Origin: Watersipora subatra
Taxonomy: Eukaryota; Bryozoa; Gymnolaemata; Cheilostomatida; Watersiporidae
Direction of reading: 5' to 3'
NCBI RefSeq assembly: GCF_963576615.1
Contig: NC_088711.1
Coordinates: 3,720,001 to 3,784,000 of the forward strand
DNA length: 64,000 nucleotides
Shown here one piece after another: positions 2,333 to 63,200 of this stretch (positions are counted from its first letter, which is position 1; every line of letters begins with the position of its first letter). The notes under the pieces are model-generated. The model did not search any database, was not told where the DNA came from, and saw only the letters and a list, made by a program, of their open reading frames with translations. The position numbers and the translations under genes were made by a program.

Positions 2333-2427
2333 CTCATTAAGGCGTCCTGCTCTCGAGCCTTTTTTTCATTAATTTTCTTCTTCCTATGTTTCTCTCCAAC
2401 CGCAATACAAATGGCCAGAACCAGCAC
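2333..2427 (-). CDS. BSG: Basigin-like exon 5
   Basis: Acceptor ATGCCGCAG. It encodes the inner half of the membrane segment, VLVLAICIAVGEKHRKKK, and a basic cytoplasmic stretch ending DALM plus two bases before the donor GTAATC. At least one further exon is required; see the entry for 1-1375. Confidence 0.87.
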
Positions 2428-5400
2428 CTGCGGCATGATAGTCAGTAACAAAGAGCAATATTGCGAAGGGATATTGACACTGACAACAGAATTAAAAGCA
2501 TTAAAAACATCTGCTGTTAGTAGAATGTCAGGAAAGAGGCAACAGTAGGTACAGTTAGTTTAAAACTAGCTAAGTATAAGTGTGAAAATTGTTTACAATT
2601 CACCTGTAATACAATTCCAAGGAAGGGCCAGACTGGCGCTAGTTTATCTCTTGCGTGAAGAGTCTTTGCTATCGAAGCATTTCCCATGCTATTGTTGGCG
2701 AAGCAGCTACAAGGGAAAGAAAACTCTGTATAAAAGGAAAGGCGCGCGGATGACCTGACAGGCGATGTCGAAAACTATAAGCAGTCTTAAACTCGCACAA
2801 AACTCTAATAGCAAAAATATGACAAAGATGCTCTGGTCAAAGATACATCAGAATACGCTGTATAAAGTGTATATAATCTGATTCATAACAGAGGAAGTAG
2901 TAGTCTATGCTATGAAGATGCAGTCGTACTAGTCTGCTCAAAAATTCTAACTGTGCCAGAGCCAAGCGAATTTCTTAGTTTGTTCAAGAACTGCGCCGAA
3001 CCGCTAGTGCCTATGCAGAAACTCTGATCAAAGCCTATACCCTCTTGGGCCTAAACAGCGCAATTATCTACGAAAAAGTGAGATGAATGCCGACACAGAC
3101 ACCAAGAAAATTTCTAAACAATTTCAGCTGTTAATACATATGGAACAGAACTCACAAAAAACCTCGGAAAAAACTAAAGAAAACAATTCATAGACAAACT
3201 CACACAAAGGTCAAGTTTTGCTTACAACAGCACCTACAACATATAAAATAAAGAACTGGTACCTATACTCTCCTTTGTCTTCACTGTCTTCCAAAGACTG
3301 TATGTAGTATTCAGAAATAGTCAGAGGTCCATACGTTGCCACGGTAAAAACATCAGCATCCATGACAACACCATTCAACGACCATGTGATGTTTGGGGCA
3401 GGAAATCCATAGAACTGCATAAAAACATAAAAATGCTTAATGGGATTTCAACAATTTGACCATGCCACGGAAACATTTGAGAAAAACTGGTAAATGGATA
3501 CGGCAAGAATCACTTGTTATGTTGCAGTTATAGACTGAGAAAGATAAAAAAACTATGGCCATGGTTTCTTGAGCTCTCAAATCCTAGGAGTTGTCAAACA
3601 AATAACGCAAAATTATTTTAAATGAATGGCAGTATCAAATCTAAATGCTGCTTTATGTTACCAAACAATTCATATTAGACAGTTCTTAAAGGGTTTTGGC
3701 AGCACTTCTTATGCTAAACCTGATTGGCATAATTTTCAGCATGGATCAATGTTGGGAGCGTGCGAAGTATTGCTGAAAATCTTGGCAGTATTAGTATAAT
3801 ACTCCTATCATTATCTTGGTTTGTCTTCAGTGACCATTCTGCAATAGTGATCACTCATCTAGTTCCTATCATTCTATGAAAGATGTACACACAGGCCAAT
3901 AGTTGGGTGATTAACGTTAAAAACAGAATCAGTTACCATTCAAAAACTTGCATAATGTCTCAAAAATTGAGTCGTTTACGTTCATTATTTAGACAATTAT
4001 CTATTGCAGAAACCAATTAGAACAGACATATTTCGTTTCATTTCATCATGAAAATTGAGTAGTTTTACTTTGGAACATGTTCAACAGTGATAAATGTAAC
4101 TGTTAAAAGGATATATGTTATAAATGCTAAAAGAGAAAACAGGTGTTCATAGATATAACTGCTCATGCAAAGCTAAGATTTGCACAACTTTATTAATTCT
4201 CAAATTGTTTGAACCAGTTGAACTTAAAAATATTAAAAAATCAAATACTTAATGAAGTTGTGGCAAAATATATGGATTTTCACGACTGGCAACAAAACTA
4301 TGTGGCCAGACAATATCTAAATAAAACTGCTCGTCCTTGACTTCTTAGCTGAATTAAAATTGTTACTGTGAGCTGCGTATAACCGGTGAGATTCCAGGAA
4401 AACAATGCAAGTAGTGTAAGGTACCGTAAAACCTCTAATTGAAAGCCACCTCTATTTAAACGCCACTACGAGAGAAGGGTTGAAAAATAAAGCGTCACTC
4501 AGGCTAATTAGTTCCTTGTTTAACGGGGTCTTAATACTTCAAAGAACATGCATATGAAAAATGGTTTGCAAGTTTTGAGCCAAAGGTTACGTTTAGCGAG
4601 CAAACTTTTACGCGTTGCATTTGGGCTAAATTCAGCGCGTAAAGGTTTTTCTCTGCCAAAAAATTGTTTGTACGCTAATATCGACTAGTTCGGCAATACA
4701 GAAGAATAGTTGAGGCCAGAACATATTGTGGAAGGTATTGAACAAACAGAAGATGTTCATTCCATCGAAAGCAACAATCAGAACGCAGCTATCCGAGCAA
4801 TCGATGCAAATATTTTTGATTTAGAAACATCAATTTTTGTTTCTGCATGTAATATAAGTATGGTTTGTTTATGTCACTTGTTCATGAATAGATATTTGTA
4901 TCATTTGATAGATTATCATTATATAACTTATAAACATGCAGATTCATAGCATGTTAGTAAATATCATCCTTGCGGCCATTTTAACACAGCTTACAATGGA
5001 TCGATGCTGATAACTCCAGTTCTATTGCACATAAAAAGCTATTTTTGGCTGCAAATTGTAGCAAACATATCAATGAGCTTTTATACAACATTGTCAAATA
5101 TAGATATAAAATATAAAGATGTCTTCAAATAAAGAATGAAATGAAAATTGAAAATTCAAACAAACTGCAAAGAAGGACACAGGCTATAATATCATCGCGG
5201 GTCAATTGCAAGCAATAGATATAAACTGGTAGAGATATTTCTCTGTTTCTCCATGCATATTTATTAATAGATTTTTGACAAGCTGAGGGTAAGTTAGCAG
5301 CTTTATTGCATCCAAAAGGTTTAACATCTCTTCACCGAAAAAAGAGAAACTATAGGCAACATTCGCGTCGCCCGCAATAAGGCTGAATTTATTTTCTCAA

Positions 5401-8400
5401 AATTCTGACGAGCCATTTAAAAAATACACTGCCAGCCTCTAATAGAACACCGCCTCCAATTGACCGCTACCACAGAGAAAAGGTTGAAAAATAGAGCGCC
5501 ATGATGTTTAATTAGCGGTTTTACGGTACATCACTTAAAATACATATTTGCAGTTCCGATATACGCTTCTCATGCTTAATCGTCACATTTTGTAGCGAAT
5601 ATTCATATACAATACATTGTTTCGTGTTCAATTTGTTTCAGATACTAAACCGCAATAGTAACTACTTTAAGTATTTAAATACAGCATTGAAACAAAAATG
5701 ACATAAAAGATGTACATAAAAATGTACGTGCAATCTAACATAATAAAGCAATAAATTACAAAAGGAGGTTGTTGTTATTATTGTTATTATTCTATGCAAG
5801 AATAGAGAGAGTTCTACCATTACTTCACCAAGGAAAGACGGACTCAGCTGAGTTTGATGGCAAAGAGTGTGACACAAATATGCAGCATACTCTAACTTAC
5901 ATAATACATAATTTGATTCAACTAAACTCTTATATTTTGATTGACCATTTTTGCCTTTTTACTTTTACTTACAAAACTGTAATGTTTTGAAAAATTTTGA
6001 ACATAGTATGTTGGGTATTACTTTGTATCTAGATAATTAGAATTTATACTGTATTGTAATTGATAATTGTATCATATATTCTCGCAAATGTACATCAAAT
6101 GTCAGAAAATTTATCTGTAGAGGTGATTATAAGTGGAGGTTTGACTGTTTAATATTAAATAAATTGATAGTTTCAGTAAGGGTAAGTTTAGGTTCTATTG
6201 CAATGCAATTCCATACCGAGTCTAGCGATAAATAGATTCATACAGTTTTTGGAGGCTGCTCAGTCAAAAAGACTATAGTGTGTTCACAAACCATTCTTTG
6301 ACAGACCGACTCGTCTGCATGACTGTAGGACCTGAATATTTAATGAAATAATGTAAGAAGTGCTTGAGAATAAGTCGCTGAATACAAGACTACAAGAGTA
6401 AAGAATAGTCACATACAGAGCAAAGAATACCGAGGGAGTCTTTATCCATATATTGCTCTTTGAAAGGGACAATATCTATGGCAGCCTCTTCAGGTTTACC
6501 AATGACAGCCATGGATGCAGAGAGAGGAATTGCTTTCTCCTGGGTCCATCTGCACTCATACTCACCAGGTGAAGTAGGCTCTAGAATATATATGTTTCAG
6601 TAATTACTGGTAAGTATTTATATCTAGAGGAGAGCGTGATGAGAGGAGAGCGTGATGAGAGGAGAGCGTGATGAGAGGTAAGACCGTCTGCTTAACACTG
6701 ACAGCTGAAAGTAAAATAAAACCTAATCTTCAAACTATTCATAGACTTAGTTCCACACTTCGTGTTCAGCACTCTTCATTAGTTTACTTTAGTAATTATC
6801 TTTTCCATAATTATTTACTTCAGCAGTATATATTTATACTAATTCGTATACAAAATAAACACATATATTTTACATATGTATTTGTAAATTATGTATATTG
6901 GTAGACAGTTGGTAAGCCAGCAATTCCACAAATTTTGCCAAAATTGTGATTTACGGATCATTGAAGAGAAATCTTGATTGCCATGTGACGAGTTAACCTT
7001 CAATTTAGTTATGTTCAATTCCCAGGGGGGAGGGTTGATCATTGCATAATGATAATGAATCAGAAATGTTTTGACATCGAAGGAGTAGTACTACCCTAGG
7101 ACACTTATATTTCGCTAGTATTTAGTTTCGTGAGTACCATACAGAGTAAAATTTTGCTGCAACTTAATTTCGCGGATCTGATGAGTGCGAAAATATAGTG
7201 ATGTGAAAATAAATGCAGTAGAACAAACATAATTAGATTCCTCAGGTCCAGTTCACTAGTATAAAAAAGTTTCCAATTTGGGACTAGTTTGTATTTGTGA
7301 ACCGCGGGTAGAAATGTGTGGGCGAGATCGACAATGCAACTTGATCGCTTGCTGCTATTTGTTTTTTGGACTATCAATAAAGTCTAGGTCCTTGCCGCCA
7401 TGACTGATGTGGTATCGATATTAAATATCAAGTATTTATAGCGGCGGTGGCCATGGCTCAAGATTGTTATTGTCTTTGGTTGGTAATAAAATTCATCGCT
7501 ACAATAATTATTATTCAATTTTATGACTTTCCCTACCAGACTTTCATCCTGTTCAGTTTTCATCCATTCAGTTACAAATTCAGTGACTAAACTAATATCA
7601 TCATCTTCCTCATTTGTCTTGGCTTTTCCAAAAAACCTGTTATCTCAATTTGCTTTGCCACGCCGCTCAGTCGGCGTATTAGCTATAATGAGTTCAGCAG
7701 AAATTGCCCAATGAGCCCACCACACACAAAGGTTACCTGCATTTCTAATATGACGATTTTATTGTGGATATCAATGAATAAAGCTATTTAACTTCGCGTT
7801 TTCGCTCGTTTGTTATGATAGTTGAGTTTCGCTCATGAAATTTTCGCAAGAGGATGACTCCGCGAAAATGCGAAAGTTAGATGGCGCGAACACATAAGTG
7901 TCCTAGGGTAGTTTAATTTCATAACAATTACTAGTTTCACTTTTAAAAACCCGGGATCCATATTCTTTTTGGGGTGAGTTGGTCCACCTAACTCATTGGA
8001 ATTTGATAATAATTGGACAGACTTTGAAAAGGCTGGATTGGTCAATTGTTAAGAACAATTTTTGGTTTTCGGCAGATGAGAAACTGGCCAAACAATGACT
8101 AACTTTTGCAATTGTTTGGACAAACTGAATATAGTGTTAATATGGACAAATTTAAAAATTGATAAATAGCTTATAATTGGCAAAGCTTAAAGATGAAGCA
8201 ATTAAAAAATGTATGAAAGCTGAAAACTTGATTTAATATTCATGTTTTTATAATCATGTTTTTATATTCATGTTTTTATAATGACTTCTATAAGAGCAAT
8301 GACCTAGTGTCTCCGAACAAAACTCAAATAAAGCATTATCTTCATCCATTGAAATGCAATTGAAATTATTGCTTAGTGTTGTCTGAAAATAGATTTTGTC

Positions 8401-9560
8401 GTTGAAAAAATTAACAATTAATACAAAACACAGATCTACTGCATGATCTTTTTTTTTGTATTTTTTAACAAAAGATGAATGCTGAAGAAATAGCAGATCT
8501 TTTTGTGATTTGAAATCTTTGAACTGGTAAGTCTTGGCAAGCTAAGCTTGAAAATGGAAGCGCATATCAAAGTATTATAAAAGATTAAGTACGCATAACA
8601 AAGTTCCGTTTTAATTGATGAATTACACTTCAATAGTGGTTTTGGCATGTGAATAATTATGAAAAACTCGTTTTTCTCATTTATTCCATTTTCTATTAAA
8701 TATTATTTTATAAATATAAAAAAATGTGTTTAATCAAGAAAAATGAAGCACAAACATAGCATGCATGAAACCTATCACTTGTATAATCAGTCAAAACAAA
8801 TTTTTACATTGGAAATTGCTTGGCACAGACATCGGATGGATTTTAAAATGCAAATTAGCAAAAAAGATGCTCAATGTCATTGGAACATCAGACGCACTAT
8901 GATAGTGAATAAAGAAAACTTGAAGTACAGTAGCTGGCATTCTACAAAGTAAAACAGCTTATGGTTACATACCGGAACACCAATATACTTACGGTCACTG
9001 GCAAGAGGAAAGTTCAAAGAATAGGCGCCAGATGAATCTGTCACGGAATCTTTCAGCACTTCGGTTTCACTACCTTCCACCACCATGCCATTAACCAGCC
9101 ATTCAACTTTTTGCAAGAGCTCGTTATATACATTAGAATAAAATGTCATGTTACAATGAAAACTTCCATCGGCAGCTTCGGCAACTTTGAGGTCAGAGAC
9201 TATAGCAACGGCAGAGATGCTTGTTGTACTAGTAAGGCACCATATGTTATAAACCCGCAAGGCAGGCTCCTCTATGGTGAACATAAGTGTTTTATTGCTA
9301 GGAAACGAGCTAATATATGAAGTATTCAGCTTGGTCGATGCTTGGCCAAACTCAGGAATTATTTCAGGGTCGCAAGAGGTATCGCAGTCAGTCACATGAA
9401 CTTCAATATTCGAAAGGTCATCATCTATTTCACAACTACCACTAAATCCTTTGCTCACATCGTAAAAGCCATCCTTGAAATGAATTACCGGATCGGATGC
9501 AGCAAAAACTGATGCAGCAAAACAACAGCAGAGAAGTCCTTTAGCAAGCAGAACGGCCAT
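2333..9560 (-). CDS. BSG: Basigin/neuroplastin-family Ig-domain membrane glycoprotein (five coding exons seen, 3' end unresolved)
   Basis: Exons in order: 9560-8993, 6580-6417, 3414-3263, 2706-2604, 2427-2333. All introns are GT-AG and the frame is continuous over 360 codons plus two bases. The order is signal peptide (residues 1-20), a divergent Ig-like region (about 25-115), Ig 1 (about 118-228, with C, W and C positions), Ig 2 (about 232-312, motif GFPAPNITW and closing GEYSCFA), transmembrane segment (about 320-340) and a Lys/Arg-rich tail. The segment VWPFLGIVLQVLVLAICIAV is the family hallmark; human basigin has WPFLGIVAEVLVLV there. Three Ig domains match the long basigin isoform. Family members sit at the plasma membrane, chaperone monocarboxylate transporters and take part in adhesion. 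Several N-glycosylation sequons are present. Odd point: the conserved intramembrane Glu is Gln329. Neuroplastin or embigin assignment is possible; membership of the family is not in doubt. Confidence 0.9.
2604..2706 (-). CDS. BSG: Basigin-like exon 4
   Basis: Acceptor CCCTTGTAG. The first base completes Ser, giving GEYSCFANNSMGNASIAK, the end of Ig 2. The exon closes with WPFLGIVLQ, the outer half of the transmembrane segment. Donor CAG/GTGAAT, phase 0. Confidence 0.9.
3263..3414 (-). CDS. BSG: Basigin-like exon 3
   Basis: Acceptor TTTTTATGCAG. It encodes FYGFPAPNITWSLNG, which joins the preceding ILCS into a textbook Ig strand B-C region, and runs to the D-x-G-E-Y motif. It ends TATAG before GTACC, phase 2. 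Confidence 0.88.
4422..5528. mobile_element. Non-autonomous TIR transposon, family TACCGTAAAACC (copy 1)
   Basis: Left end TACCGTAAAACCTCTAATTG; the right end is its inverted partner (reverse complement TACCGTAAAACCGCTAATTA). The ends abut TA, as in pogo/Tigger or mariner elements. Internal blocks match the copy at 38232-38791, for example GGCTGCAAA(C/T)TGTAGCAA. The short open frame at 4710-4949 has no recognisable domain. It lies in the largest intron of the basigin-like gene (3415-6416). Confidence 0.75.
6417..6580 (-). CDS. BSG: Basigin-like exon 2
   Basis: The acceptor TATATTCTAG is followed by AG, completing the split codon as Gln. It encodes PTSPGEYECRW, the closing Cys of Ig 1, the interdomain linker, and the start of Ig 2 up to LGILCS. 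Donor GTATGT, phase 0. Confidence 0.88.
6625..6678. repeat. 16-bp tandem repeat, about 3.3 copies
   Basis: The unit AGAGGAGAGCGTGATG is repeated head to tail just upstream, in the minus-strand sense, of basigin-like exon 2, within the intron. Confidence 0.85.
7091..7911. mobile_element. Inverted-repeat element with 18-bp perfect TIRs
   Basis: The ends are CTACCCTAGGACACTTAT and its exact reverse complement, 821 bp apart, followed inward by TTCGC-rich sequence in inverted orientation. No transposase reading frame is seen. I could not read a clear target-site duplication, so the superfamily is left open. It lies in the intron between basigin-like exons 1 and 2. Confidence 0.75.
8993..9560 (-). 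CDS. BSG: Basigin-like exon 1
   Basis: ATG at 9560 opens a hydrophobic signal peptide (residues 1-20, MAVLLAKGLLCCCFAASVFA). Residues 21-189 cover the first Ig-like region and most of Ig 1, including CNMT, VEWLVNG and the sequons NTS, NKT and NMT. The exon ends at GACC before the donor GTAAGT, leaving one base of a split codon. Confidence 0.9.
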
Positions 9561-10086
9561 CTTTGTATTCTGTAAATAATAGTAGTTTGTTAGAACCAGC
9601 TTACCAGATGAAAGATAAATATTAACTAATGTTTTTAGGTTGCAGCAAATTGAAATTTTTATATTAATTTTAAAATACTAAACTAATATCAATAGCTCTG
9701 GTTACACTTTACAGCGCATGATTTTGAATACAAAATGGAAATCGCAAATAGAGTCTTCACACAGTGTTGATTCAATGCATTGATTGGTCGTTCATGAGAC
9801 CATCATACTTTAAATGGAGTCGCAGTTTCATTTCTCGAAGGATGCAACAAAAACCGCTAGATGATTATCAGCTGATATGTTCTTGTGTCCTTTGCCAGAC
9901 CAAAATGATCAACTGACATATTTGGTGAGTAGTCAGAAAAGTTCTCATCAATGCATGGAACCTCACCTGTAGCGACATGCAAAATTTGAAAGGTTTGTTC
10001 TAATTTCAGGTCTTTGATAAAAAAATTTCAAAATTAAAAATTTTCTGGCAACTGCTCCAGTTGGTCACTGAACTTGTTTGCAAATC
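9561..10086. other. Upstream region of the basigin-like gene
   Basis: This holds the 5' UTR and presumably the promoter of the minus-strand gene starting at 9560. No TATA box could be placed confidently and no coding exon was recognised. Confidence 0.4.
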
Positions 10087-41724: not shown

Positions 41725-41855
41725 TCAGCAGTCGTCATCGTCTTCAAAATATCCAGATCCTTCTAGGCGATCCAGCAAGGACACGAACTTGCAGCCGGTC
41801 CGCAATGACCTCTTCTCACCAATAACCAGGCAATTGCTAAGTTGATAATCTTCCC
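41725..41855 (-). CDS. CFP: Properdin-like exon 9: TSR6, second half, and acidic tail
   Basis: The acceptor CTTGTAG is followed by EDYQLSNCLVIGEKRSLRTG and GYFEDDDDC, then TGA at 41727-41725. The last residue is Cys, so an extra disulphide or multimer contact is possible. Confidence 0.8.
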
Positions 41856-44800
41856 CTACAAGAATAAGCAACTTGTGTAACTGTTGAGTGAGATTCAAGG
41901 ATTAAATGAAATCATGAGGTGTGTTTTATGTAAACAAGAAGTGCAATTATAACTTACCAACGCATGTATTGCCGCCATACATGGGCATTGGACAAAGGCA
42001 TTGCCGTACTCTGGTTCTGAAATTTATATTATTGGTGGCTAGTCTGCACTCACTGTATGGTTCCCAGTTGCACCATTGTCCATTTACTAAAACAAACGTG
42101 TTGGTCATAATCTACTGCGCCTCATTGGGATGATCCGCTAGTCAAGTCGCACTGTCTACATAAGTGAATCCACTGTCACAAACTGTGTAGTGCAGTTTGT
42201 GTATCTTAATTGCTAGAAACTAAAAATGCCACCTATTCTGTGACATGGTTTGAAATGTCAGCAGAGGAAACAAACCAAGCTCTACATTTAATTGAACAGA
42301 AGCAGTCACACCTGGCATTGCTCAAGTGAAAAATACAGCTAAAAAAAAATTTTTTTACAAGTAACAAATAGAATTGAACAAAGTCGATCGTTTACACTTC
42401 GTTGCTATTGATACATCAACTACGCAGGATAGAACTTCCTTGTTTTACATATTTATGTATTCAACTAATTTAAGTATTAACCAAAATATTTGAGAATACC
42501 ATTCAGGATTGATAGAGAATCTATACAACTCTGAATAGTCAGAGCTATTTTAGGAAGTTGAATTAGGAGGATGTTAAATTCATGAATAATCCAGAATCTT
42601 TTGTCTGTCAAATTGGGTATTGAGCAATCGTTGGTAAAAATAAAAAATTCAACAATGTAAGTAAAATTAGTTATCGAACAATTGTGGAAAAATTTGAAAG
42701 TAAAATTGAAGAATGGTCAAAACTTTGATATTTTCTAATAACAGGCTTTTCTTTGACACTTTAGACTGATTAAATAATTGAATCTCACATTTCATAGTTT
42801 TTGCGTTTTTGAAATGAGAGTTTTTCAAAGAGTTTTGGCAAAATTCTGTTAGTCTTGAAAAAAACTGGCACTTGTTTTAAAATTCAAGTGTGAGCTTCTG
42901 TTTCTACATATTTTAATGCAATTAATTTGCCATTGTTTCTTAAAAAATCGGCTATTAGGTTGTAGTTTTATCTAAGGTTTGTACACGAGCAGAGATTTGA
43001 ACATTAGGTACAGGTAGAGATATTGTATGACTTAGATAATCAAGTCCTTTGGTACGGTCCCAGCTTTCATCCCAGGCCTCTCTTATCCTGAATGTTTTTG
43101 GCAGTATGGTAAAAACTAAACCATATGTTTTGACTTTCATTTGCTTCAACAAAGTAAAAAAAGCTGTAGTGTAATCGTACAATCCCTTTATTGTTCTGCT
43201 ATCATATATATCAAGGGCTCTGTATATGAGGCTAGTTTTTGTGACATACGTGATTTTTTGCTCCGATAGTTACATTAAAGATCTAAATTTTTCATGATGA
43301 CATCTGTCAGTCAAGATGTCAGTCAAGATGATAAAGAAGAATCAAACGCTTTGAATTTCAGGCCAATATTCTTAGTTGAGCAACACATATATTAAGGCAA
43401 AAGCAGATCGAACTATGAAAAGAACACAAATTCTCAGAATCTACAGTTTACATGGATCGCTGATTGATAGTTCAGGTGACAGGAACAAGACCTAGAAAAT
43501 CAATGAATTATGTTGTCTATGTGATGAATGTTATCTATTATGAAAGACCTATAGATATGTTGTATAGACGAAAAAATGCAAATCTAAAAATTTAATCACG
43601 GATATATTGGCATTTGAATTTATCAGCCTTCTTTTCTGCTAAAGCTTGATATATCCAAGTTATACTGAAGTTTGTTATTCAGAGCAGTCAATTGTAATCA
43701 TTTTGTATCTAAGAATCAGCTGCAGAAAATTGAAAAGTAGGGTTTATAATGTCATCATGTTCATATGAGAATATGTACCAGGAAAATGGTACCATAGTGC
43801 TTTATAATCGAATTTTATGCCAAGTAATTTGGGGACAAAGATAATGCTAAACGTGAGAACAAAATAAGGTTGAACTAATCAAGAAATGCAGCTTTGCTGG
43901 GAGCCCCCATACCTGAGCAGTTGTTGTTGTGGTAGCAGGTCTGTGTGTCAGTTGTTGTTCCACTGCACAACTTCCCTCGGAAGCGAGGCTGTGGATTCGA
44001 GCATGTTCTCGTTCTTGTCTGTATTCCCGTCTCATTTGAGCATGGTCGAGCCAGGCACATGCCCCAGTCGGTCCAACTAGTCCATTCTCCATTTACTGAA
44101 ATGTACACGCATTGAAAACTGGTGCTTGAATTATTAGGACACGTCATAATTAGTCACATTAGGCCTGTAGCAATCTTCTGTACATTCGAAAGGTGAAAAG
44201 ACACTTCATAGAATACTGAGTGGTAGGATAGTGTTGAGTGGTAACAATAAGGATGCTGCAGGAAATAGAATCAGACCTGGGCAGGGGTTATGACTGTAAC
44301 AGGGTTGGCTTTCAGTGGAGTTCCCAAGACATTCCTTGCCACCATTACGAGGAGATGGAGCCACACAGAGACGAGTTCGCTTTGTCAAGCCTTTCCCGCA
44401 AGTTATTGAGCAAGAGGAGAATGTGCTCCAGAGTGACCACTGACCATCAACTTGAAAGAAAATTCATGAAATAAAATAAAATGGCTTGTCAGTATAAGAT
44501 AAAAGCAAAATGGAGAAATCAAGCCATAGTCATCATATAGATTTATTGCTTTGGTGGCAAGTGACAGCAACATAAAGAAAGGCCTAACTCTCACTTGGAC
44601 ATTTACGGTTGGTGTCACATTGAGACACATCTTTGCTACTTCCGATACAAAAATTTCCTCCATGTTTTGGTTCCGGTTCAGTGCAGGTTCTGTGTCGCAT
44701 TGCTTTGCCTCTTCCACAAGTAACATCACACACTCCATAATCACCCCAATTCGACCATCCGCCATCCACTAAATCACAGGCATAAAATTGTTTGGCAATT

Positions 44801-47800
44801 GTGCTATATGGCACAGCCAAATAGCACGAGAAGTAAAAGTTTAAAGAATGGTTCTTGGCAAGGAAGTTTTTTCTTTCAATAGTATCATATCTAGGAATAG
44901 CAATATACAGCTGCTATTCTAATAACGCCTGCTTCAAAGCCATGAGCCGGTAGTCTCCCGGTTCTTATGTATGGATAGCATGCGGTTTTAACATTTGATC
45001 TTGGCAAGCGATTTGTTGAATCTTTACCAACAGCTTTTGGAAAGAAGGCACTGCTATCCGCACTACTGTAGGTTATCTTCTCGCGTGCTGAGCTTTTATT
45101 CACTGTACAGCTACGACCCTGTTCATTTGGAGGTTGTACAAATAACAAAAATCCTAAAAGTGCAGAGCTTCATTTACGTTATAGCCATTTCATTTTATAT
45201 AGAAATTTTAGTCCACATAAGCTATCTAAATATTTTGTTTAATTTGTCTATAGCCAGAAACGAAACTATGTATTTATAGAATGTAGGTTTATGTTGGTAA
45301 TAGATATAGTATTTAGGAGAATGGTATGTGAAAATGAAATAATTTTAAAAAACACACGCATAAATCTAGTAGCTAAATATTGGTATACTTTATTTTAAAT
45401 TATCCAGATAATAAAATTGAATACAAATGCTAGCCAGCATTGCACAGGAACAGCCAAAAGTTTGATTAGAGCTCTTTTTTTAGACCTGTTTAGCAATTTC
45501 TGTGCTTAAGACAAAGCACAAACTCACCTGGACAGCCATGTGAATTGCAAACTTTTATTTCTGTGCGGTCTGCACCACAGTCTCTGCCATTGCTTTCAGG
45601 TACAGGATTATTGCATAGTCGCATTCTTTGTCGTTGACCACCACCGCATGGCTCTGTGCACCCACTCCAAGAATTCCATGGCCCCCAGCCACCATCAACT
45701 GCGATATGAGTACATTAAAAATCGTATGATAAAATTGTGAAATTAAATAGCAAATAAGGGAGTGGTAAATCCTAGTAATCAATTATAAGTGTTTTTGTGA
45801 AGTTCTAATTTGTACGTCGTGCTAGCAGTCTACGAGTTATATTACTCATAATCTACCAAATTAACAGGAAATAAGCAGCCTGGTAGGAGGTAGACACTGG
45901 GTGGGAGGTAGACACTGGGTAGGAGGTAGACACTGGGTAGGAGGTAGATACTGGGTAGGAGGTAGATACTGGGTAGGAGGTAGACACTGGGTAGGTAGAC
46001 ACTGGGTACTAGGTAGACACTGGGTAGGAGGTAGACACTGAGTAGGAGGTAGATACTGGGTAGGAGGTAGACACTGGGTAGGATGTAGACACTGGGTAGG
46101 AGGTAGATACTGGGTAAAAGGTAGATACTGGGTAGGAGGTAAACACTGGGTAGGAGGTAGACACTGGGTAGGAGGTAGACACTGAGTAGGAGGTAGACAC
46201 TGGGTATGAGGTAGACACTGGGTAGGAGGTAAACACTGGGTAGGAGGTAGACACTGGGTAGGAGGTAGACACTGGGTAGGAGGTAGACACTGAGTAGGAG
46301 GTAGACACTGGGTAGAAGGTAGACACTGGGTAGGAGGTAGATGTTTGTATATATATATATAAATCTTATGTCATTAACTATGTTCCTCTTAATAGAAAGA
46401 CAAGTTATTGAAGAATTTATATCAAATTAAACTTGTACCCAAGTTAGGTACCCAAACAAAGAGGCATTTTATATTTGCAAAGACTTGATTTTTGTAAGCA
46501 TGATCAGTGTGACAGCGCTGACATAAACTAGACTGAATGGGCAGACCATGATCCCTGCTTAAAATCTAGCTAAAACAGTTTAATGTATCAAGATCCAGGA
46601 TCAATCAGCATCATCAAAAAGCAAAGAACATTGATAAGGTGTCACAAATGAGGTAAGACAATCCTAGAAGTTAATAGTCCTGTTCAGTTATATGAAGTAG
46701 TGATTGATAATCAAAAAAGAAATTCGTCTTTAAAAATATTTACAGAAGATGCCAAGACAGGTTATTGCACTGTTGAAAATGTTGACAATGCTGAAATGGC
46801 ATCTGGTAAGCATACAAATTGAAAGTTTATCCGAGGAGCTAGTTGCACTGTACCGACAGAACTCCAGGACTAAGGTATTGAAAACACCATTCTAGATAAC
46901 AACTCGGAATAGTATAAGAAATTTGCACTGTTTGGATTGTGATAAGATTCCACTAGCAAATGGGCTGAAAGTCGGTATTGGTAGGAAAGACAAATCTCAA
47001 TTAAAGTACATATTTCTGAAATTGCTTGGAGTTATTTTCTCCTTGTAGATTACCCTTGGACATAATCAATGTTGTGATAATATTAAGGCATCCTATAGTG
47101 CAGGTTCAACAACAGAAAGCTGTAGCGCGCCCCCCCCTATGCATTTATAGAAGAGCAAGTCTAGTGCATTTCTGCCAATAAAAAAAACTTGGTACTGTAG
47201 TTAAAATTTTACTGGTGGATTGAGTCAAAAAAAACCATTCAGAGTTAGCTGTAATTTATATAAAAAAGTTATTGCTATGTTGAACATCTAAATTATAATT
47301 GATGTTATCTTACTTGGACATTCAATAATATCCCAGCACTGCTCCTGCTCTGTGCGGTCTCCGTTGCAATCAACAGCTATGCTTCCTTGGCATAGCCGCT
47401 CTCTCCGTTTAGTACCCACAGCACAAGTTGCGCTGCATGCTGACCATTCATCCCAGCTTGACCAACCGGTGCTATTTACTGCCAAGATAGGTTTTATGTA
47501 GTTCGTTGGGCATGGTATGCATTTCCACTTGCGTTTCCGTCGTCCAATGCTCACCTGCAACCAATTACTGGGTTTTGATGCTTTGAATGAGTTCGAAGTT
47601 TCTTCAACTCCGAATCATAGGAACGGTAAAATCCGAACGGATTCGACTCTATTCCACTTCGCTAAAGTTGTGCAAAGGCATCCGCAGTGAAACTACGATT
47701 TGAGCTCACAGAAATGCTCATTGCTGATGGATTCAAACCAATAATAACCAGTTAAGCTCTCCCCAGTGGAGGTAAAAAAATTCAGCGCATTTCATCACAC

Positions 47801-50419
47801 TACTACGCGGGTATAGTCTAACAACTCTTACTACTATTGCCAACAATAGGTAGGTTGCTCACATGACAATGATGATATAATTACCTTTTTTAAAATTATT
47901 TTACCTTATTCATTAACTGAACCTACCGGTTGCACAGATTCCCACTGCACTGGTGTCGACCTCTTCCTAGACTTCACTCTTCTAGCATAGAAAATGTTTT
48001 TTACTAAACGCGATTGTCGTTCATGCGACCTTTGAAATAATAGCTGTACAGCAAATAGTAAATTATGTTGCTATTTTGCAATGTGAAGGGATATTAATAT
48101 TATCAATAATAAAGAAAATTCTGATCAATTATCTTGGCTGAGTTAGTGCAACAACTGTACGGAGCATGAATTGAAAAGTGACCGGGACCTGAAAGCCAGT
48201 CTAACAAACTCTGTTTTGAGAAGTACATCACTAGGCTTGGAAAAATGGATATAGTGCAACTCCAAATCGTTGAAACGGTAAAGTGCGAATTCGTTGGCAG
48301 AGGTCAACTCCAAATCCATTCGAAGCATGGAAACCCAGCGAGTGTTCAGAGTTGAATTTTGAATGATAGCTAGCAATTAATGTTATACTGAGAGCTACCC
48401 TGAGCTTATACTCAAATTAGCTGAAATCTTTGTTCTCAAGCCTCACAATATTTTTTAATGTATGGAACTTTTTATGGAAGATGGTGCGTGAAGCGCAACA
48501 CAAATATAGATATCGAAGAACCTAGAGACTTGTCTTAAATCATCAAATATATTTAGTGCATCATAAATTACATCCCGAGACATTTGGCTAATAAGTCGAA
48601 TAAACAAGCTTAGTTAATATTGCCAGAGGCACGGTTAGACCCGCTTCATAGCGTTCTCAACTTCTCTAGAAAAGACAGCATGCTGTGCAGTGGATCACAG
48701 TACTCTCTATTTTAAAACGGTCGACCTCTGGTTCAGTTAGCCGGAGCAAATTAATGAGCAGCTTTCAGAGAAGCCGTATAAAATACAAGAGCTGGCTAAT
48801 TGATTTGCTCTCATAGGATAACAGGTGAAGGACATGAATAAGGAATGATTAGCAGTTTATTAATGAATAATATATAAGAGAGAATATCTTAGCTTAATCT
48901 TAGCCTAGTCTGATATAAGTAACAAACACTCACCTGTATGAACCGACAGAAATTATAATTTTGCTGTAATGTTGTATGCCATTCTATTCATTATTCTCCA
49001 AGTATACACAATCACCACACACCCACCACACAACCACTTACTAAAAAGGCATATAGTTCAACTGTGAAGAAATGAAAAACTTCTAAGAAATATCAAAGCA
49101 TAAAATAAGTACTTCCTTTTGATACGCCAATTATATAATATATAGTTATATAATACACCTGTATATATAACTTCAATGCATCATTCAAGCCAGCAGAGCA
49201 TCAGAGGTAAGAAAAGATAACCCTGTATAAGAATATATGAGTGTGTGGTGTACAATGCTTAGATGAGAGCTATTATGAACTATTTAAATAATTTGAAGTT
49301 GTCTGTCAATATTTGATGCATATACAAGTAAGTCGGGGCTTTCCATGTTATTTAGAGTGTGGCTAATACGACACAGCAAAGTGACCTTAAGTCAGTGAAA
49401 GCTAACACTAGTTATTGATTGCATGATTTGACTAACAACATGCACTAGAAAACAATAACGTTGTGCCCTGTGATTCATTTGTGATTCATAAATTGGTGTG
49501 TTTATGTTACCCGAAGCAGTTTCCTGCTGGATATTTTTCGTTTCAATTGTTAATTTGTAGATGCTCTCTTCATAAAAATTTGGTTTATCGTGCAATTCAA
49601 CCATAAAATATGTAAGTAAAATAAAATACGAACTCGTTCACAAGAGATTAAAAAACTAGCGCAATGGCAATGGGCTAGACTGAGTGCCTAGCCCGAGTTG
49701 GAATGAAAGTGCGATAGATTAACGATAAGTGTGTATTCTTTCCTGTAGATGAATGCTCAAGGTTGAGCTAAAATCAGTGTTACAGATTTTACTATGCCAC
49801 CTGTGCTCCATCTTAGAATCTGCATCTTAAGATGAATATACGTTTATATGATCTACTTACCAATTCTCGGGCGAACCCCTGGCCATCCTTGCTCTCACAA
49901 CATGCTCTAGATGTCGGAAATATGTGCTTGTCAATTAGGCCTCGACAAGTTTTGCCGCCAGGCGCATCTTTGTCAGCTTCATGTATCTTCCGAAAGCAAA
50001 ACTCTGCATCTGAACAGTGATATTAAATTATTGTGGCACTCGCAAACACGATGCGGCCAATGATACGATCAGCGGTGTGGACTCTTAGTTCAGCAAGTTT
50101 ATTGAAAACAAAAATGACGACAACACTTCCAAGGTCAAATTGATAACAAAGCTTTAATAAATTCTGCGGTTGACTACAACTCTGTCCGCTGTCTATGATG
50201 TCTCGTAATCACCAAAAGCTAACAAAAAAATTAAGCTTTTGTTCAATCTAAACATCGGCAGAAAAAGAGAACAGAATTGAACGTGTCCAACCATCCCTAA
50301 GCTGAACATAACAATAATAACGTGTAGTTATATGTGAACTTACCGCATAGAGTTAAGAATCCCAGAGTGATTAACCAGAAAGACGGGAGCCATGAAGATG
50401 TAGCCGGATAAGGGCTCAT
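41725..50419 (-). CDS. CFP: Properdin-like secreted protein (TB module plus six thrombospondin type 1 repeats), complete
   Basis: Nine exons: 50419-50344, 50009-49861, 47554-47314, 45698-45528, 44768-44595, 44450-44277, 44095-43913, 42086-41958, 41855-41725. All are GT-AG, mostly phase 1, total 475 residues plus stop; human properdin is 469. The order is signal peptide (1-25), a six-Cys module at residues 30-90 spaced C..C..CC..CxxC as in properdin's N-terminal TB domain, six TSRs each beginning W-x-x-W, and a C-terminal tail ending EDDDDC, like properdin's acidic end. Properdin binds and stabilises the alternative-pathway C3 convertase; that function is established only in vertebrates. W-x-x-W motifs suggest C-mannosylation. 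Other TSR proteins have different N-terminal modules or TSR counts, so properdin-like is the best fit, but orthology and complement function are inferences. No C3 or factor B gene lies in the window. Confidence 0.83.
41958..42086 (-). CDS. CFP: Properdin-like exon 8: TSR6, first half
   Basis: WCNWEPYSECRLATNN, then RVRQCLCPMPMYGGNTCVG. TSR6 is atypical, with an extra Cys next to W-x-x-W, and is split by an intron, unlike TSR2-5. Donor GTAAGT, phase 1. Confidence 0.82.
43913..44095 (-). CDS. CFP: Properdin-like exon 7: TSR5
   Basis: WTSWTDWGMCLARPC, then RTRTCSNPQP, GKLCSG, NNNCS. The insertion after the first Cys (LARPCSNETGIQ) parallels the longer N-terminal loop of human TSR5. Symmetric phase 1-1 exon. 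Confidence 0.9.
44277..44450 (-). CDS. CFP: Properdin-like exon 6: TSR4
   Basis: One complete TSR: QWSLWSTFSSCSITCGKG, RTRLCVAPSP, GGKECLG, NPCP, with an NST sequon. Symmetric phase 1-1 exon. Confidence 0.92.
44595..44768 (-). CDS. CFP: Properdin-like exon 5: TSR3
   Basis: One complete TSR: GWSNWGDYGVCDVTCGRGK, RHRTCTEPEP, GGNFCIG, KCP. Symmetric phase 1-1 exon. Confidence 0.92.
45528..45698 (-). CDS. CFP: Properdin-like exon 4: TSR2
   Basis: One complete TSR: GWGPWNSWSGCTEPCGGGQ, RMRLCNNPVP, GRDCG, VCNSHGCP. Both splice sites are canonical and the exon is symmetric (phase 1-1). Confidence 0.92.
45882..46341. repeat. 18-bp minisatellite, about 25 copies
   Basis: The unit TAGGAGGTAGACACTGGG is repeated with single-base variants (TAGATACTGGG, GTAAACACTGGG). 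It lies in intron 3 of the properdin-like gene. Because 18 is divisible by three, the minus strand shows a false S-T-S-Y-P-V reading frame. Confidence 0.97.
47314..47554 (-). CDS. CFP: Properdin-like exon 3: end of TB module and TSR1
   Basis: The acceptor TTGGTTGCAG opens VSIGRRKRKWKCIPCPT; its CxxC (C87, C90) completes the six-Cys module, as CQPC does in properdin. TSR1 follows (residues about 105-155): GWSSWDEWSACSATC, RRERLC and a closing Cys pair. Donor CCAA/GTAAGA, phase 1. Confidence 0.85.
49861..50009 (-). CDS. CFP: Properdin-like exon 2: TB-like module, first part
   Basis: The acceptor CACTGTTCAG starts DAEFCFRKIHEADKD, with C30, C47 (KTCRGL) and the paired C62-C63. Human properdin has LCF, KCKGL and DCC at the equivalent points. 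Donor TTG/GTAAGT, phase 0. Confidence 0.82.
50344..50419 (-). CDS. CFP: Properdin-like exon 1: signal peptide
   Basis: ATG at 50419. A hydrophobic run WLPSFWLITLGFLTLC (residues 10-25) follows a short polar start. Donor GTAAGT, phase 1. Cleavage is expected close to residue 25. Confidence 0.75.
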
Positions 50420-55718: not shown

Positions 55719-57101
55719 TAGAGACGGGCTTTGTACACAAATGTAAAGGCAGCTATAATTTTCTTGTTTAGACTACTTGTATTTTGTCTACTGCTACAGA
55801 TGCTGATTAATACCACACCTGTGATCAACTCTAGCTGACCGATAGCATTAAATCGCTATTAAAACGCAACCAATAAAGTATTTTTAAGGCTAGAAGATAA
55901 CCTAATGACAAGGTTATGGAGTAAAGTGGTAGCTTATTTTTGAACAATTCTTACCCGCGATTTGGTCCTTTTGGCACTAAAAACGGCGCAACTATTCCTA
56001 CTATGCCACACAAAATTGACATTACGGCTAACGGAATAGTAATGTCAGCTTCAGCATGCAACCTGCTATCAACCATGGTGTACAGTTACCAACAATGCAG
56101 CGAAGATACACAAAATTATCGATACTCGCAGCAAAACGATGTCACTAAATTTGCACGTTTCCTGTCACATGATAAAGTCTATCGGCAAACCAAACCGTCA
56201 AAGACGGTTTGGTCAAAGATTTAATAATTATTTTATTTCAAAATATACATAACAAATTTAAAATTGTTATTTAATTGTTTATCTATTTTTAAAATCAACT
56301 AATAAAATATGAAAATATGGTCAAATGAATTTGGGATGAAAAAATTAAAAAATTCATTGATTAAATATTTACAAATAATTATTTTATTATATTGTTTTTT
56401 GTACATGCATTTTGCAAAAGTCAGTTTCGTTTGAGTTTACGTAGTCGAAATGTGTAATGACTGAACAAATCGACATGGTTGTCATGAAAACTAAATGATA
56501 CGAAGTTGATTTCGGTTTGGCTAATTTCAATCTAATTTCAGCTATCGTATAATTTTCTCTTTAATTACTTAATAGTAATTCTAAGATTATCAAACATTTG
56601 GTATTTAAACTAATATTTTGTTCTACTCTAGTAAGCATTGCTATTGAACTTGATAACTAATTATTGTGACACAAAGTCCAAACGCCAACGTGATATTGGT
56701 TCGAACTGCTTGCTTTTGTCAAAGTTAATAAACTAAAAAATTTTTTATTTGTATACACAGTATCTTAAACTGTAGTAAATTGTTTCAGATAACTTTGAGT
56801 TTTAGCATTTTCTACAATGCTTGTTGCCAAGAATTTTTTATTTGTAGTTTGTTTGCTTCTGTATTAAATACCTCCTCTTTGTTGAACGAAATAATTAATA
56901 TAAATACACTAAAATGTATTTATCATAAACACATTATCTCTTTTCTATGATGTGTTATTTTAGTCCTATATAAATAGTTTCGTTGCATTATACAAACATG
57001 TATTTGAGATGTATTTTGTCAAAACGAAGTTTATTATTTAAAAAACTAGCTTTTACTAATTGTTTTATTCCTCAAACGATCTTTTAGAACAAGAAAAAAT
57101 A
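55719..57101. other. Region upstream of CFAP206
   Basis: AT-rich. It contains a short hairpin (AAACCGTC/GACGGTTT near 56190-56208). An acceptor-like CTTTTAG at 57080-57086 just before the start codon suggests a 5'-UTR intron. No other gene is seen. Confidence 0.4.
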
Positions 57102-57293
57102 ATGTCACGAGCACAAGCAGAAAGTGTGATAAAGAACATCATTCGAGAAATAGCTGCTGAATGTGCTGCTAAGGGACAGGCTGTGTCTGAGACTCTTGTG
57201 GCATTTATGGTGAAGGCAGTAGTTCTAGACCCTAATAACGAGTTCAATGTCGACAGAACTCTGACAAAGGATGACGTACAAAAGTTGATAAAG
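57102..57293 (+). CDS. CFAP206: CFAP206 exon 1
   Basis: 64 codons from the start Met to DVQKLIK. Donor AAG/GTCAGT, phase 0. Confidence 0.95.
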
Positions 57294-60200
57294 GTCAGTT
57301 TTCACTTTATTGACATGCTACTGTTTTGTAACCACAAACTGCAAAGTTAAATTTTTCATAACTGTTACATTGTGTTTATAAAATGCTACTTCTTACATCG
57401 ATAGGTCAAATGTTAATAAAGCTTGCTATTTAATTTTTAAACGCTAAACACTCCACTGGTTTTTTCAAGTGCTATTATGTGTAGGTCTCTTGCTAATAAT
57501 GAACTATTGTTGTTACAGCTTTGTGTAGAGAAGCTACTGAACACCCGGTCTCCTTCACTTGATACAATCAAGATGCAAGTATATTTTGATATGAACTATA
57601 CAAGCAGACGTAAGTATTAGTTTATTAGATTGCTAATATTACACTTCTTAATAGACTGCAGGTGCTTAAAACAGTTGTCAAACTCAGTGTAGACAATCCA
57701 TACAATTACAAATACTTATTCTAGTTAGCTTATAAAATTTAGTTTGCTCAAGTAATCTTAAGTGCATTTGATTGATGTGCATATGTATTTCTCGATTAGC
57801 ATTTTGCTATGTTTAGGTACACACTAGTAATAGATACATATAAAAAGTTTATAAAAAAATTATAAAATCTCAGAGTAGCAATGTGAGACAGAACTTTTAC
57901 TCATTTTCGTGATTGCTCAAGTTTCATCCATACAGAGATGTGAGAAACAGATGATTTCACCTTTTAGGATATATAGTTCACAGTTTCTATTGCTAATTTA
58001 GTGTACAACCTGCTTGGCTGCTTGCAAAGTCAGATGTTTGTCTATACAGTTGATCTATCGAACTATCTTTTTTATCACGTTCAGGCTTTTTTCTGAGTAA
58101 AAAAAGTTGTTTTTTATCAAGTAAAATCTGGCTCTCTTTTGTTGTCTCATTGCTTGAGTCATCGGTTGAGAACTGTGTTTCTACCAACATTGATTTTTCT
58201 ATAAAATTAAATGTACAAGAAAATAAATACTATTGATATATGAAATAAGATGATGCTATGCCCAACATAGTTAATACAGGGTCTTTGTGTAGTTGACCAT
58301 AGTATGCTTAGAATGTCTGTGCAAGATATAGTAACTAGCGCTTTCTGCTGCAGATTTATTTTGTCGATATCATAGCTTTACTTGAGCACATCCTTGTTTT
58401 TGAAATAGAAAGTCATTTAGTTTTTAGTTTTACTATCTTGGCGGTATCATCCTCCTTGTGCTAGTGATTGAGTCTACACAAATTTTTACATGTTGAGACA
58501 ACTCACCAATTACAGTACAAATATGTTTTCACCATTATGCTTCCTTCAGAAGTGACTCATGAAACTTGTTGCTACAGCATTTATGGCTGTATATAGATGG
58601 TCTGCTGCTCCCTCTAACTGCCTTGACCCCCTACCTCTTTTTCTCAAGCAAAAAAGGTATCTGCAAATGCCTAGTAAGTCGTTCCACCCTTTTAGGGCCA
58701 CCACGTTGTTTAAGAGAATAAGTTTGTATTTCAACTTCATATTTGGTGAAAACTAATCAAAGAAACCAAGCTCGAATTCATATTTAAATCTAACATGATT
58801 GAAATGGTGGAAACAAAATTTGAACTTATTTGTTTTGAACTGAATGCTAGCCTTGTAAACTCTTATGAGTGAACGCTTGTAGAAACTGAATTGAGGCTAG
58901 TATTGTATCGGCACAATGCGCTTTAATTGCAATACTTTCAACACTGTGCTGACTAGCAGTCACAACTACTACCTTAAACAAAATGAATGTCCTTGCTTCA
59001 CTGATTCATCAGCGAAAAACAAACTAGTACATGTGAACAAATGTACTAGTTTGTTTTTCTTGCGCATGAATAGAAAAACGATTAAAAGAAAAAATAACCG
59101 AGGAAGAGAAGAAAATGAACTAGTTTATGTTGATTATGGTTGTTGGTTAACAACTGAAATAGTCTACTGTAATCACAGTTTATCGAGTGTGAGCATTTCA
59201 ACTCCACACATTTATATCCCTTACATTCAGATGACTTCCTTGAGGAACATAGGAGAGTCCTAGAATCACGACTCCAGCCTGTATTGCGAGAAATCACTGA
59301 CAGTCGAGCGAGAACACGAGAAGAGCTTGAGAGTCTTTACAGAAAGATTGTGTCAGCTGTTCTTCTTCGGTCTGGATTGGGCAGTCCAACAGATATTGCA
59401 GTTGTTAGAGAAGCTACTGGTAACTAGATCAATGGTGATTTAGCTCGTTCTCAGCTAGAAATGTTATCTAAAATATTAAAATCTTGTTAGGGGATGGCCA
59501 TGTGAGGTAGTTCATCTGTTGCAGCTGACAGTTGATATATTAGCTATGCAAATCGAACATCCGCAAAAATTTTTACAGCAAACATATTAGCCATGGAAAG
59601 CAGTTCATCAGTTGCCAACAACACTAGAATGATCAGTTTTATAATATAGTTCATTGATTACTTTGTAAGGTAATAGTTGCTTTGGTCACTAAACACTCTT
59701 ACTGGGGGCAAATTCATGTTAGAAAAACTGGATATGAATACAGTTGCACATCAGTGACTTGTGTGGTTGCCTTTACTTTGAAATACTTGGGAGTTACACT
59801 GAAATAGCTCAGCACGGCAGGTAATTATCACATGTCTTTACTACAGCTGCCCTGCAGAGCGTCTTTCCCCAAACCGAGCTTGGCACATTCATGGCGATGA
59901 ACAAGCGTGACAAGGAGAGACAACTTCAAGAATTGACGATGATAGTAACAGGCATCAGACTGTTCAACAAAGAGTGTGGAAAGGGAGGCGAAGGAATTGA
60001 TGACTGTGAGTAAATGGTCTTTAACCATTGTTATTAGAAGCATCATGTGCTGAGTCTCCCATTTTGGAATATGAATCTACTGCTGTTCATCACTGGAACT
60101 TTGTCATGTTTTTATTTTGTTTAAAGGTTTTTCCGTTCAGAAAAACAAAATAAGTCATTTGTTTTTCAGCAGCCGAACTAGTAATTTTTTTTTTCAACGT

Positions 60201-63200
60201 GTTGATGACGCAATATTTCATGCTTTAGTACCAGGAATTCTAAACGAGGCAGTACCAGCTACAACCCAAAATGTTGATGCAGAGATACAATCTACTGTGA
60301 AGGACGCGTACAAATACACAGCTCTTTTAGAAAAGATATGTGAGAATGAGAGGTCGAATCCCCCACCCGCCATTTCAGTTCAGCTTCTGAAAGAGGCTCT
60401 GATAAACTCTAGACAACATGAGGCTTTCCTTCGGGTGTTGCTGGTAAGATTTAAATTATCCTGGATTCTAACAAGTAAAATTTTACAGTCAAAAAATGGT
60501 ATATAATGATCTAATTATATCTAATAGCAATTGGATTAGCAAGCATAAGAATTCTGCGTTGGCAACCTCAGGTAAGAATAGAATTTCGTCAGTTAAACCA
60601 GTGAGTGATATAACCCATATACAAGGTAACTAAATTAGTCATATTGTAAGAACAAAAATGTTCAATGTTGTGGATAAGAAACTGACAGCTACGTATATTA
60701 CAAATAGTTTTTCAAGTTGCATGTTTAAAATACAACCAAGTCTGTCAAGTCTAGGTTTAAAATATCCATCTGACTTTTGCTGTTTGCAGCCTACCTCGAT
60801 TGGCTGTTTGGAATGTTTGAATTAATATGTTATCGGTTATCATAAATGTCCGCAGCGTGTGATGATTGGTTGTCTTAATTGTATGCAGCACGATGTGATT
60901 GGCTGCGCACAGCAAGTTGAAATGCTAGAGTCCCAACTAACATCAAGGATGGAGCAACTCCTGGCCACAGTACAGTCAAAGACCGCTGTGCCCACAGCAC
61001 AGGTTTATGTAAGTCTAGAACTCTAGTTAATATCATTCAACCTCGTTTGAAGTACTCTATGAGTGTTGGCCCTTGCAGCAGTTAAGTGTTTCATATAGTG
61101 ATTGACTTTGGCTCATAATTGTTGTGCAAATGCAAAATAGCTCCTAGTTGATAAGCATTGCTCGAATCACACCTGGTACTCAAAGAGGGAAGGGAGTGGA
61201 TGATGCCGCACTAATGGAATGCAGAAATACTTCTAGGGATTTGCATGTATTCAAGTTGTAACTTCTTAGCACCAGCCTAACAAGTTGAACTGTGGTATGG
61301 CTAGTATACATTCTTTTAAATAATGCTATTTATATATCTCATTTGTAGCCTCAGTTCATACATTTAGCTCAAATATGGAGCGGCTTCCAAGATGAGATGG
61401 TACTTCTTTCAGTGCTCAGCAATATTCTTGCAAGCTTGGAGCCATTTGTAAAAGGACACCAAGAAATATTTTCTGCTGAAATGCTCGCTCCATTCATGAA
61501 TGACCTGAAAATTAAGACGGACGAAGAAAGAATTGCCGAGGTGTGCTCTCTTGTTATTTACGTAGATTTTAAATAACAATTCTAAGAGTTATGCCCTCTC
61601 CTTGCAGGAGGTGTGCAAGCTACTGCCGCATCTGCTTCTAAACTTGCACCATGGGTGGGAATATGGTTGCTTCATGATAGAAAGTATAACCCAAAGCCAT
61701 AGTTCCAAACTGCTCTAATCCTCTATACTATTACCTTATAGGGAGCCTTACAAACGAGTCGTAGGTATCATTGTATACAGCAAAATGCGCTTATAATGCA
61801 ACTGCTACTTTTAGACAAGCGGCCCCAATGATAGAGTTAGACCGAAAGAGCTTGTCAACGCAGAGTGGCTGTTTCCTGAGATGACAAAAAACTTTGATCG
61901 CCTGCCCTTACAGTATCGAGGATACTGTGGCTACAACTTGGTACGTTATGACAGGCTCCTCATACCTGCCAATCCTGGTATAGGAGTACTGCGGCACAAC
62001 AACAACTATTACGCCTTTGCTTCACGAGAAGCTGCAAGGGAGTTCACATTAAATCTTGAATTGTAAGTGTTATTAACACCAACCTAAGTAATTATGATCA
62101 CATCTGTTGTAATTACCAATGTAATTACTTTGTAAGCTTTTCACTTGCTAACTTCTATAAAAATCCAAAAAGAACTGTTACTTTTTAGCCATTACATTAA
62201 TTATGCTAAAAGTTAAATCTATCTTACCCCTCATTATTGACAGTAAGTTAAATCTATCTTACCCCTCACTATTGACAGTAAGCTATAACTATCTCACCCC
62301 TCACTATTGACAGTAAGCTATAACTATCTTACCCCTCACTATTGACAGTAAGTTATAACTATCTTACCCCTCACTATTGACAGTAAGCTATAACTATCTT
62401 ACCCCTCACTATTGACAGTAAGCCATAACTATCTTACCCCTCACTATTGACAGTAAGCTATAACTATCTTATCCCTCATTATTGACAGTAAGCTATAGCT
62501 ATCTTACCCCTCACTATTGACAGTAAGTTATAACTATCTTACCCCTCACTATTGACAGTAAGCTATAACTATCTTACCCCTCACTATTGACAGTAAGCCA
62601 TAACTATCTTACCCCTCACTATTGACAGTAAGCTATAACTATCTTACCCCTCACTATTGACAGTAAGCCATAACTATCTTACCCCTCACTATTGACAGTA
62701 AGCTATAACTATCTTACCCCTCATTATTGACAGTAAGTTATAACTATCTTACCCCTCACTATTGACAGTAAGCTATAACTATCTTACCCCTCACTATTGA
62801 CAGTAAGCCATAACTATCTTACCCCTCACTATTGACAGTAAGCTATAACTATCTTACCCCTCACTATTGACAGTAAGCTATAACTATCTTACCCCTCACT
62901 ATTGACAGTAAGTTATAACTATCTCACCCCTCACTATTGACAGTAAACTATAACTATCTTACCCCTCACTGTGCTCATTCTAGATACTCATTAAAGACAT
63001 CTTAAAGGTAGGAAGGTTGAAGGTTCAAGTAAAATTCTCCATTGTAGTCTACACAGTAGTCAAATATGTGCATAAAAATGCACATGAGTCCATACGTAAT
63101 GTATCAAAGGTTAAACATTACACCACTTTACAGTTTCATGCATAAATTCATTGCCTATTGATAGACAAAATGTAGCAAAATCTCTACAAACCTGCCAATC

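Follow-up and report, generated by a model that had tools for sequence, protein, structure and literature searches.

The window, a 64-kb stretch of DNA (C4:3720001-3784000) from an assembly of 784 Mb in 239 contigs, about eleven of them large (C11 has 46 Mb, C12 123 kb), contains a multi-exon gene on its minus strand. Read from position 50419 to 41725, nine coding exons join without a frame break to give 475 codons and a stop (Table 1). Each of the eight introns has GT-AG ends, and the phases run 1,0,1,1,1,1,1,1. The predicted protein consists of a hydrophobic, signal-like N-terminus (judged by eye from the hydrophobic stretch), a six-Cys module, six TSRs and an acidic tail. Pfam TSP_1 recognised six stretches (164 bits), with no further domain after the N-terminal module and the TSRs; NCBIfam gave no match, and Rfam gave none in the 64-kb window or in 14 of the 20 fetched contig-end stretches. 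Thus, the nine-exon reading of the first-pass annotation, its product of 475 residues (close to the 469 of human properdin), its count of exactly six TSRs and the acidic C-terminus of the spliced product all held up. Two minisatellites, at 45842-46426 (within the third intron of the TSR gene) and 1324-1899, have frames open in several directions.

Table 1. Coding exons of the TSR gene (positions in the window) and the evidence for each
Exon	Content	Position	Strand	Evidence
1	Start codon and signal-peptide-like stretch MSPYPATSSWLPSFWLITLGFLTLC	50344..50419	-	donor GCG/gtaagt
2	Cys 1-4 of the six-Cys N-terminal module (CF...CRGL...CC...)	49861..50009	-	paralog exon C1:22441391-22441548, tblastn E 1.6e-5 in 30 kb
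3	Final two module Cys (CIPC) and TSR1	47314..47554	-	paralog exon 22451482-22451740, E 2e-20
4	TSR2	45528..45698	-	spliced model, genome TSR search, paralog comparison
5	TSR3	44595..44768	-	spliced model, genome TSR search, paralog comparison
6	TSR4; least canonical donor, CAG/gtctga	44277..44450	-	spliced model, genome TSR search, paralog comparison
7	TSR5; 4 residues from first Cys to second, without thumb loop	43913..44095	-	spliced model, paralog comparison
8	First part of TSR6 (WCNW ... CLCPMPMYGGNTC), without index-finger insert	41958..42086	-	spliced model, paralog comparison
9	Rest of TSR6, acidic tail, final Cys, stop	41725..41855	-	paralog exon 22461549-22461694, tblastn E 1.4e-4 in 30 kb; shuffles 0/5000

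The gene has a relative elsewhere in the genome. When the N-terminal module and TSR1 were used together as a query (150 of 180 candidates scored), the best match outside the window gene covered part of the module and TSR1 on contig C1 (E 5.4e-6). It is part of a second, diverged copy of the gene, which lies on a different chromosome (C1:22441391-22461694, plus strand) and of which eight exons were recognised in the 30 kb read; its signal exon was not found in the 1.4 kb searched upstream. The intron phases of these eight exons are identical to those of exons 2-9 of the window gene. The two N-terminal modules are 38% identical, and in a 6 x 6 matrix of TSR scores every row and every column peaks on the diagonal. 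The alignments of TSR1-5 cover 49 to 61 residues and contain 26 to 28 identities; for TSR6 with the tail, 36 of 85 residues are identical. In a tree of TSRs, the two TSR1 domains paired with support of 98/94 and the two TSR6 domains with 99/98. Moreover, the last exons share the pattern GxDYQxxNC...SGYxxDDD...C, and none of 5000 shuffles scored as high. The identical phases and the homologous exons of the paralog independently confirm the exon model, and with it the atypical TSR6 and acidic tail. The two genes belong to one family, of which this genome holds at least two members; their TSRs correspond one to one and their tail is conserved. A candidate third member at C2:64488107 (E 0.0019) was rejected; its translation looks like the disintegrin-like end of an ADAMTS followed by a TSR. 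Other weak matches touched the second half of the module, among them C5:58252911 and C6:16885577, both with internal stops, and a scan of viral contigs found no relatives.

The layout of the window protein resembles that of vertebrate properdin, with which it shares a signal-like start, a six-Cys module, six TSRs, an acidic C-terminus and a similar length. The exon plan also parallels that of human CFP, the properdin gene. One TSR per exon is, however, a common organisation, and the match is therefore suggestive rather than decisive. As described in the available text of PMC3632793, human CFP has ten exons: exon 1 is untranslated, exon 2 encodes the signal, exon 3 the N-terminal region and exons 4-8 TSR1-5, while the first 38 residues of TSR6 lie on exon 9 and the rest on exon 10. 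On that description there are nine coding exons, as here, with the signal, the N-terminal module and each of TSR1-5 on exons of their own and TSR6 on two. The plans differ in that the last two cysteines of the module lie on the TSR1 exon in the window gene. The intron in TSR6 is also placed differently, falling just past Cys4 in the window gene whereas in human CFP, counting from the 38 residues given in the same source, it lies near Tyr414, before the finger insert.

The first-pass annotation had identified the N-terminal module with that of properdin and had staked this on its aligning with the properdin TB domain by profile. The order of the cysteines agrees: C...C...CC...CxxC is the order in the human TB domain, in which the bridges are 32-56, 43-73 and 57-75 according to the available text of PMC6713926. 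The profile match did not materialise. Pfam PF18487, which gives the human properdin TB domain 88 bits, gave no score on the window or the paralog module; no PDB chain was found at E<=10 with the window module alone or with a two-sequence profile of both modules; and hhalign gave human properdin a probability of 0.3% and the N-terminal domain of follistatin, a short TB fold, one of 1.1%. By profile, the module thus largely failed to align.

Pairwise comparisons against Cys-preserving shuffles, given below as counts with the target and then the query shuffled, gave a weak and mixed signal. In global alignments of the window module with that of properdin, 45 and 49 of 5000 shuffles did as well (28/5000 and 27/3000 in earlier runs), and in local alignment 500 of 5000. 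For the paralog module and properdin the global counts were 605 and 469 of 5000, hardly better than the shuffles, and by this measure the paralog module lies nearer to follistatin. With follistatin the window module scored at the level of chance (1490 and 1416 of 5000) and the paralog module slightly above it (292 and 287 of 5000). In the joint test of the two modules, 136 of 10000 shuffles did as well against properdin, compared with 893 of 10000 against follistatin. From the six-Cys order, with its CC and CxxC, we infer a TB-like fold of the short type found in properdin and follistatin; such a fold is plausible, and the comparisons do not demonstrate homology to properdin. Follistatin itself continues after its N-terminal domain with other domains, not TSRs.

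The C-terminal parts of the protein bear on function. According to the accessible portions of PMC6713926 and PMC6736995, human properdin grips the C-terminus of C3b with a thumb loop in TSR5 and an index finger in TSR6, and these also reach Bb. Neither element is present in the window protein. A long first loop in TSR5, as originally proposed, was not borne out: the first and second cysteines are separated by 4 residues in the window gene (CLARPC) and in the paralog, compared with 9 in human properdin and 3 in an ordinary TSR (CSITC in window TSR4). The Cys3-Cys4 loop of TSR6 has 11 residues in both genes, as in window TSR4, versus 31 in human properdin. TSR6 is indeed atypical and split by an intron, as had been proposed, but not atypical in the manner of human properdin: the window domain is without the second motif Cys, and additional cysteines stand at WCNW, CLC and the last residue. 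There are eight cysteines in TSR6 of both the window gene and the paralog, with the extra ones at WCxW, CxC and the very end. The predicted C-terminal exon does not resemble that of human properdin, since 2420 of 5000 shuffles did as well for the window gene and 3387 of 5000 for the paralog. Vertebrate properdin and the window protein thus differ in the thumb, the finger, the C-terminal exon and the cysteine set of TSR6, and the TB profile is silent. Of the original proposal of a properdin-type gene matching the full architecture, then, the list of domains, the layout and the exon plan stand; the match in the functional parts does not.

Comparisons of the TSRs themselves pointed in more than one direction. 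With the whole protein as query, properdin ranked first in the PDB (168.2 bits, compared with 133.5 for thrombospondin-1). Pfam CFP_C (PF22195; cutoff 27 bits) gave 66 bits for the whole window protein and 54 for the paralog, both summed over six stretches; on single domains it gave 23.9 for window TSR5, 21.4 for window TSR6, 31.2 for paralog TSR5 and 13.3 for paralog TSR6. The in-register assignment to the human properdin TSRs ranked 24th of 720 permutations for the window protein and 50th of 720 for the paralog, so that the window TSRs do not correspond one to one to those of human properdin. Window TSR5 was most similar to TSR5 among the human properdin TSRs (117 versus 84.5 for the next), and paralog TSR5 to TSR2. 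Nevertheless, thrombospondin-1 TSRs outscored those of properdin for both TSR5 and TSR6 of the window protein. For window TSR5 the score was 38.6 bits against TSR3 of thrombospondin-1, compared with 28.9 against properdin TSR5, and in the PDB search with window TSR6 thrombospondin-1, UNC5B and ADAMTS13 lay above properdin, whose best stretch was TSR4 and not TSR6. Among the domains of the tree set, the closest by identity to window TSR2 and TSR4 were TSRs of thrombospondin-1 (54% and 52%). Thrombospondin-1 has other domains and lacks a TB cap. The tree itself (30 domains, 58 columns) did not place the window TSRs relative to those of properdin and thrombospondin, with 18 of its 27 inner branches open. 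TSRs are plentiful in this genome: of 426 candidates, the 150 that were scored all matched. TSR exons form large clusters at C4:54.6-55.95 Mb, C5:58.2-58.3 and 64.8 Mb, and C10:15.5-15.8 and 52.7-53.6 Mb, and some of their scores are identical, as in a recent tandem gene expansion.

A genome-wide search for complement partners found 57 exon-level matches to the thioester domain (TED), in several clusters, which may be of the A2M, TEP, CD109 or C3 types. ANATO had no match in the genome, with the control likewise silent, and NTR had two, neither near a TED match; since both domains can be split by introns, these results do not show absence. On the domain matches, C3 is not established in this genome. 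Innexins are abundant, with 49 exon-level matches, of which six run through nearly the entire domain without a break in the frame (best, 342.7 bits). This abundance makes a protostome host likely without showing it: an ample set of single-exon innexins is typical of lophotrochozoans, but innexins also occur in cnidarians and amphioxus; to our knowledge, echinoderms and hemichordates lack them.

Other features were observed in the window and the assembly. Exons of a CFAP206-like ciliary gene lie at 57060-62063 on the plus strand of the window, where the ORF at 61815-62063 matches Pfam FAP206 (103.8 bits); the ORFs at 57060 and 59173-61573 are presumably part of the same gene, the 57060 piece being without a FAP206 match. 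On the minus strand, 3214-9677 may hold a multi-exon gene for a secreted protein, with a weakly immunoglobulin-like ORF at 3214-3447 (C2-set_2 E 0.016, below the cutoff) and a signal-like start in the ORF at 8880-9677. The unplaced contig C239 (17.6 kb), considered as a candidate mitochondrial genome, proved not to be one; its ORFs at 261-4632 appear again after 11,271 bases, as they would if a tandem or circular unit had been assembled with an overlap. A human COX1 query had no match in the assembly.

Invertebrate proteins have been linked to properdin before. The accessible parts of the sources describe a sea-star contig similar to properdin (PMC4503460), anthozoan TSR-only proteins called properdin-like, which form one of the two largest TSR groups there (PMC5446238), and properdin-likes of a sea anemone (PMC12549020). 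In the available text of these three papers the name rested on sequence similarity, and a TB-like cap, a six-TSR exon plan or loop anatomy was not seen in it. As described in PMC5446238, the anthozoan proteins consist almost only of TSRs, as here, and the accessible description, which is our sole basis for comparison, does not mention a six-Cys module. The full-text literature that we searched, which covers few subscription journals, yielded no report of the combination of cap, TSR count and exon plan in a protostome.

How, then, should the gene be read? A true properdin orthologue would stabilise an invertebrate alternative-pathway C3 convertase. The agreement in layout, length, coding-exon plan and N-terminal cysteine order is what such a gene would show, and the TED genes would offer a setting for it, but the thumb and the finger, the very parts that hold the convertase in human properdin, are missing, the tail is unrelated to the human one, the TB profile is silent, and neither ANATO (as silent in the control) nor the two NTR matches away from TED adds to the case. 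We consider this reading improbable. The same differences in loops and tail would fit a TSR-only protein without properdin descent, one whose small Cys-rich cap and six TSR exons had been put together separately and whose resemblance in layout is convergent. The abundance of TSRs in this genome is consistent with such an origin, as are the affinities of TSR2, TSR4, TSR5 and TSR6 to thrombospondin-1 and, in the available text of PMC5446238, the standing of properdin-like TSR-only proteins and ADAMTS as the largest TSR groups in anthozoans. However, the combination of a CC/CxxC six-Cys cap with exactly six TSRs behind it and an intron within the last of them is a specific one; the PDB search with the whole protein puts properdin first; and the window module prefers properdin to follistatin in global alignment (45 versus 1490 of 5000), although the paralog module does not. 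Convergence is accordingly a possibility that we take seriously while doubting it.

The reading that we favour, and to which we would give about an even chance, is of a secreted-looking family with a TB-like cap and six TSRs, of at least two genes, possibly a distant relative of properdin, whose products are probably head-to-tail oligomeric binders of surfaces or matrix. The family would be distantly related to vertebrate properdin and have its layout in common with it. The window gene should not be filed as properdin. The product would be a secreted rod of six TSRs, with a six-Cys TB-like cap at one end and a conserved, Cys-rich acidic tail at the other. Since WxxW is present in all six TSRs of the window protein and CxxS/TC in three of the six, C-mannosylation and partial O-fucosylation would be expected. 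In the human properdin oligomer, as the available text of PMC10087229 and PMC6736995 has it, each molecule is joined to the next by contacts of its TB domain with TSR4 and of its TSR1 with TSR6. The N- and C-terminal ends of different molecules of the present protein may likewise pair head to tail, the conserved Cys-rich tail perhaps taking part. TSR rods joined in this way could bind multivalently to glycans or to surfaces, including microbial ones, and serve in pattern recognition, opsonisation or the matrix. Surface or glycan binding, or a matrix role, would fit a TSR rod and would need no C3.

A bolder proposal, which we regard as unlikely, would make the gene a protostome orthologue of properdin. 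The scaffold of a TB domain and six TSRs would then predate the protostome-deuterostome split, and the vertebrate line would have gained the two convertase-gripping loops at a later stage, with the finger arising beside the TSR6 intron. If true, this would mean that properdin began as a surface-binding scaffold and took on its role at the convertase only later. A family that has the cap, the TSR count and the exon plan but not the convertase-binding loops provides a concrete test of when properdin arose and of the order in which its parts were added.
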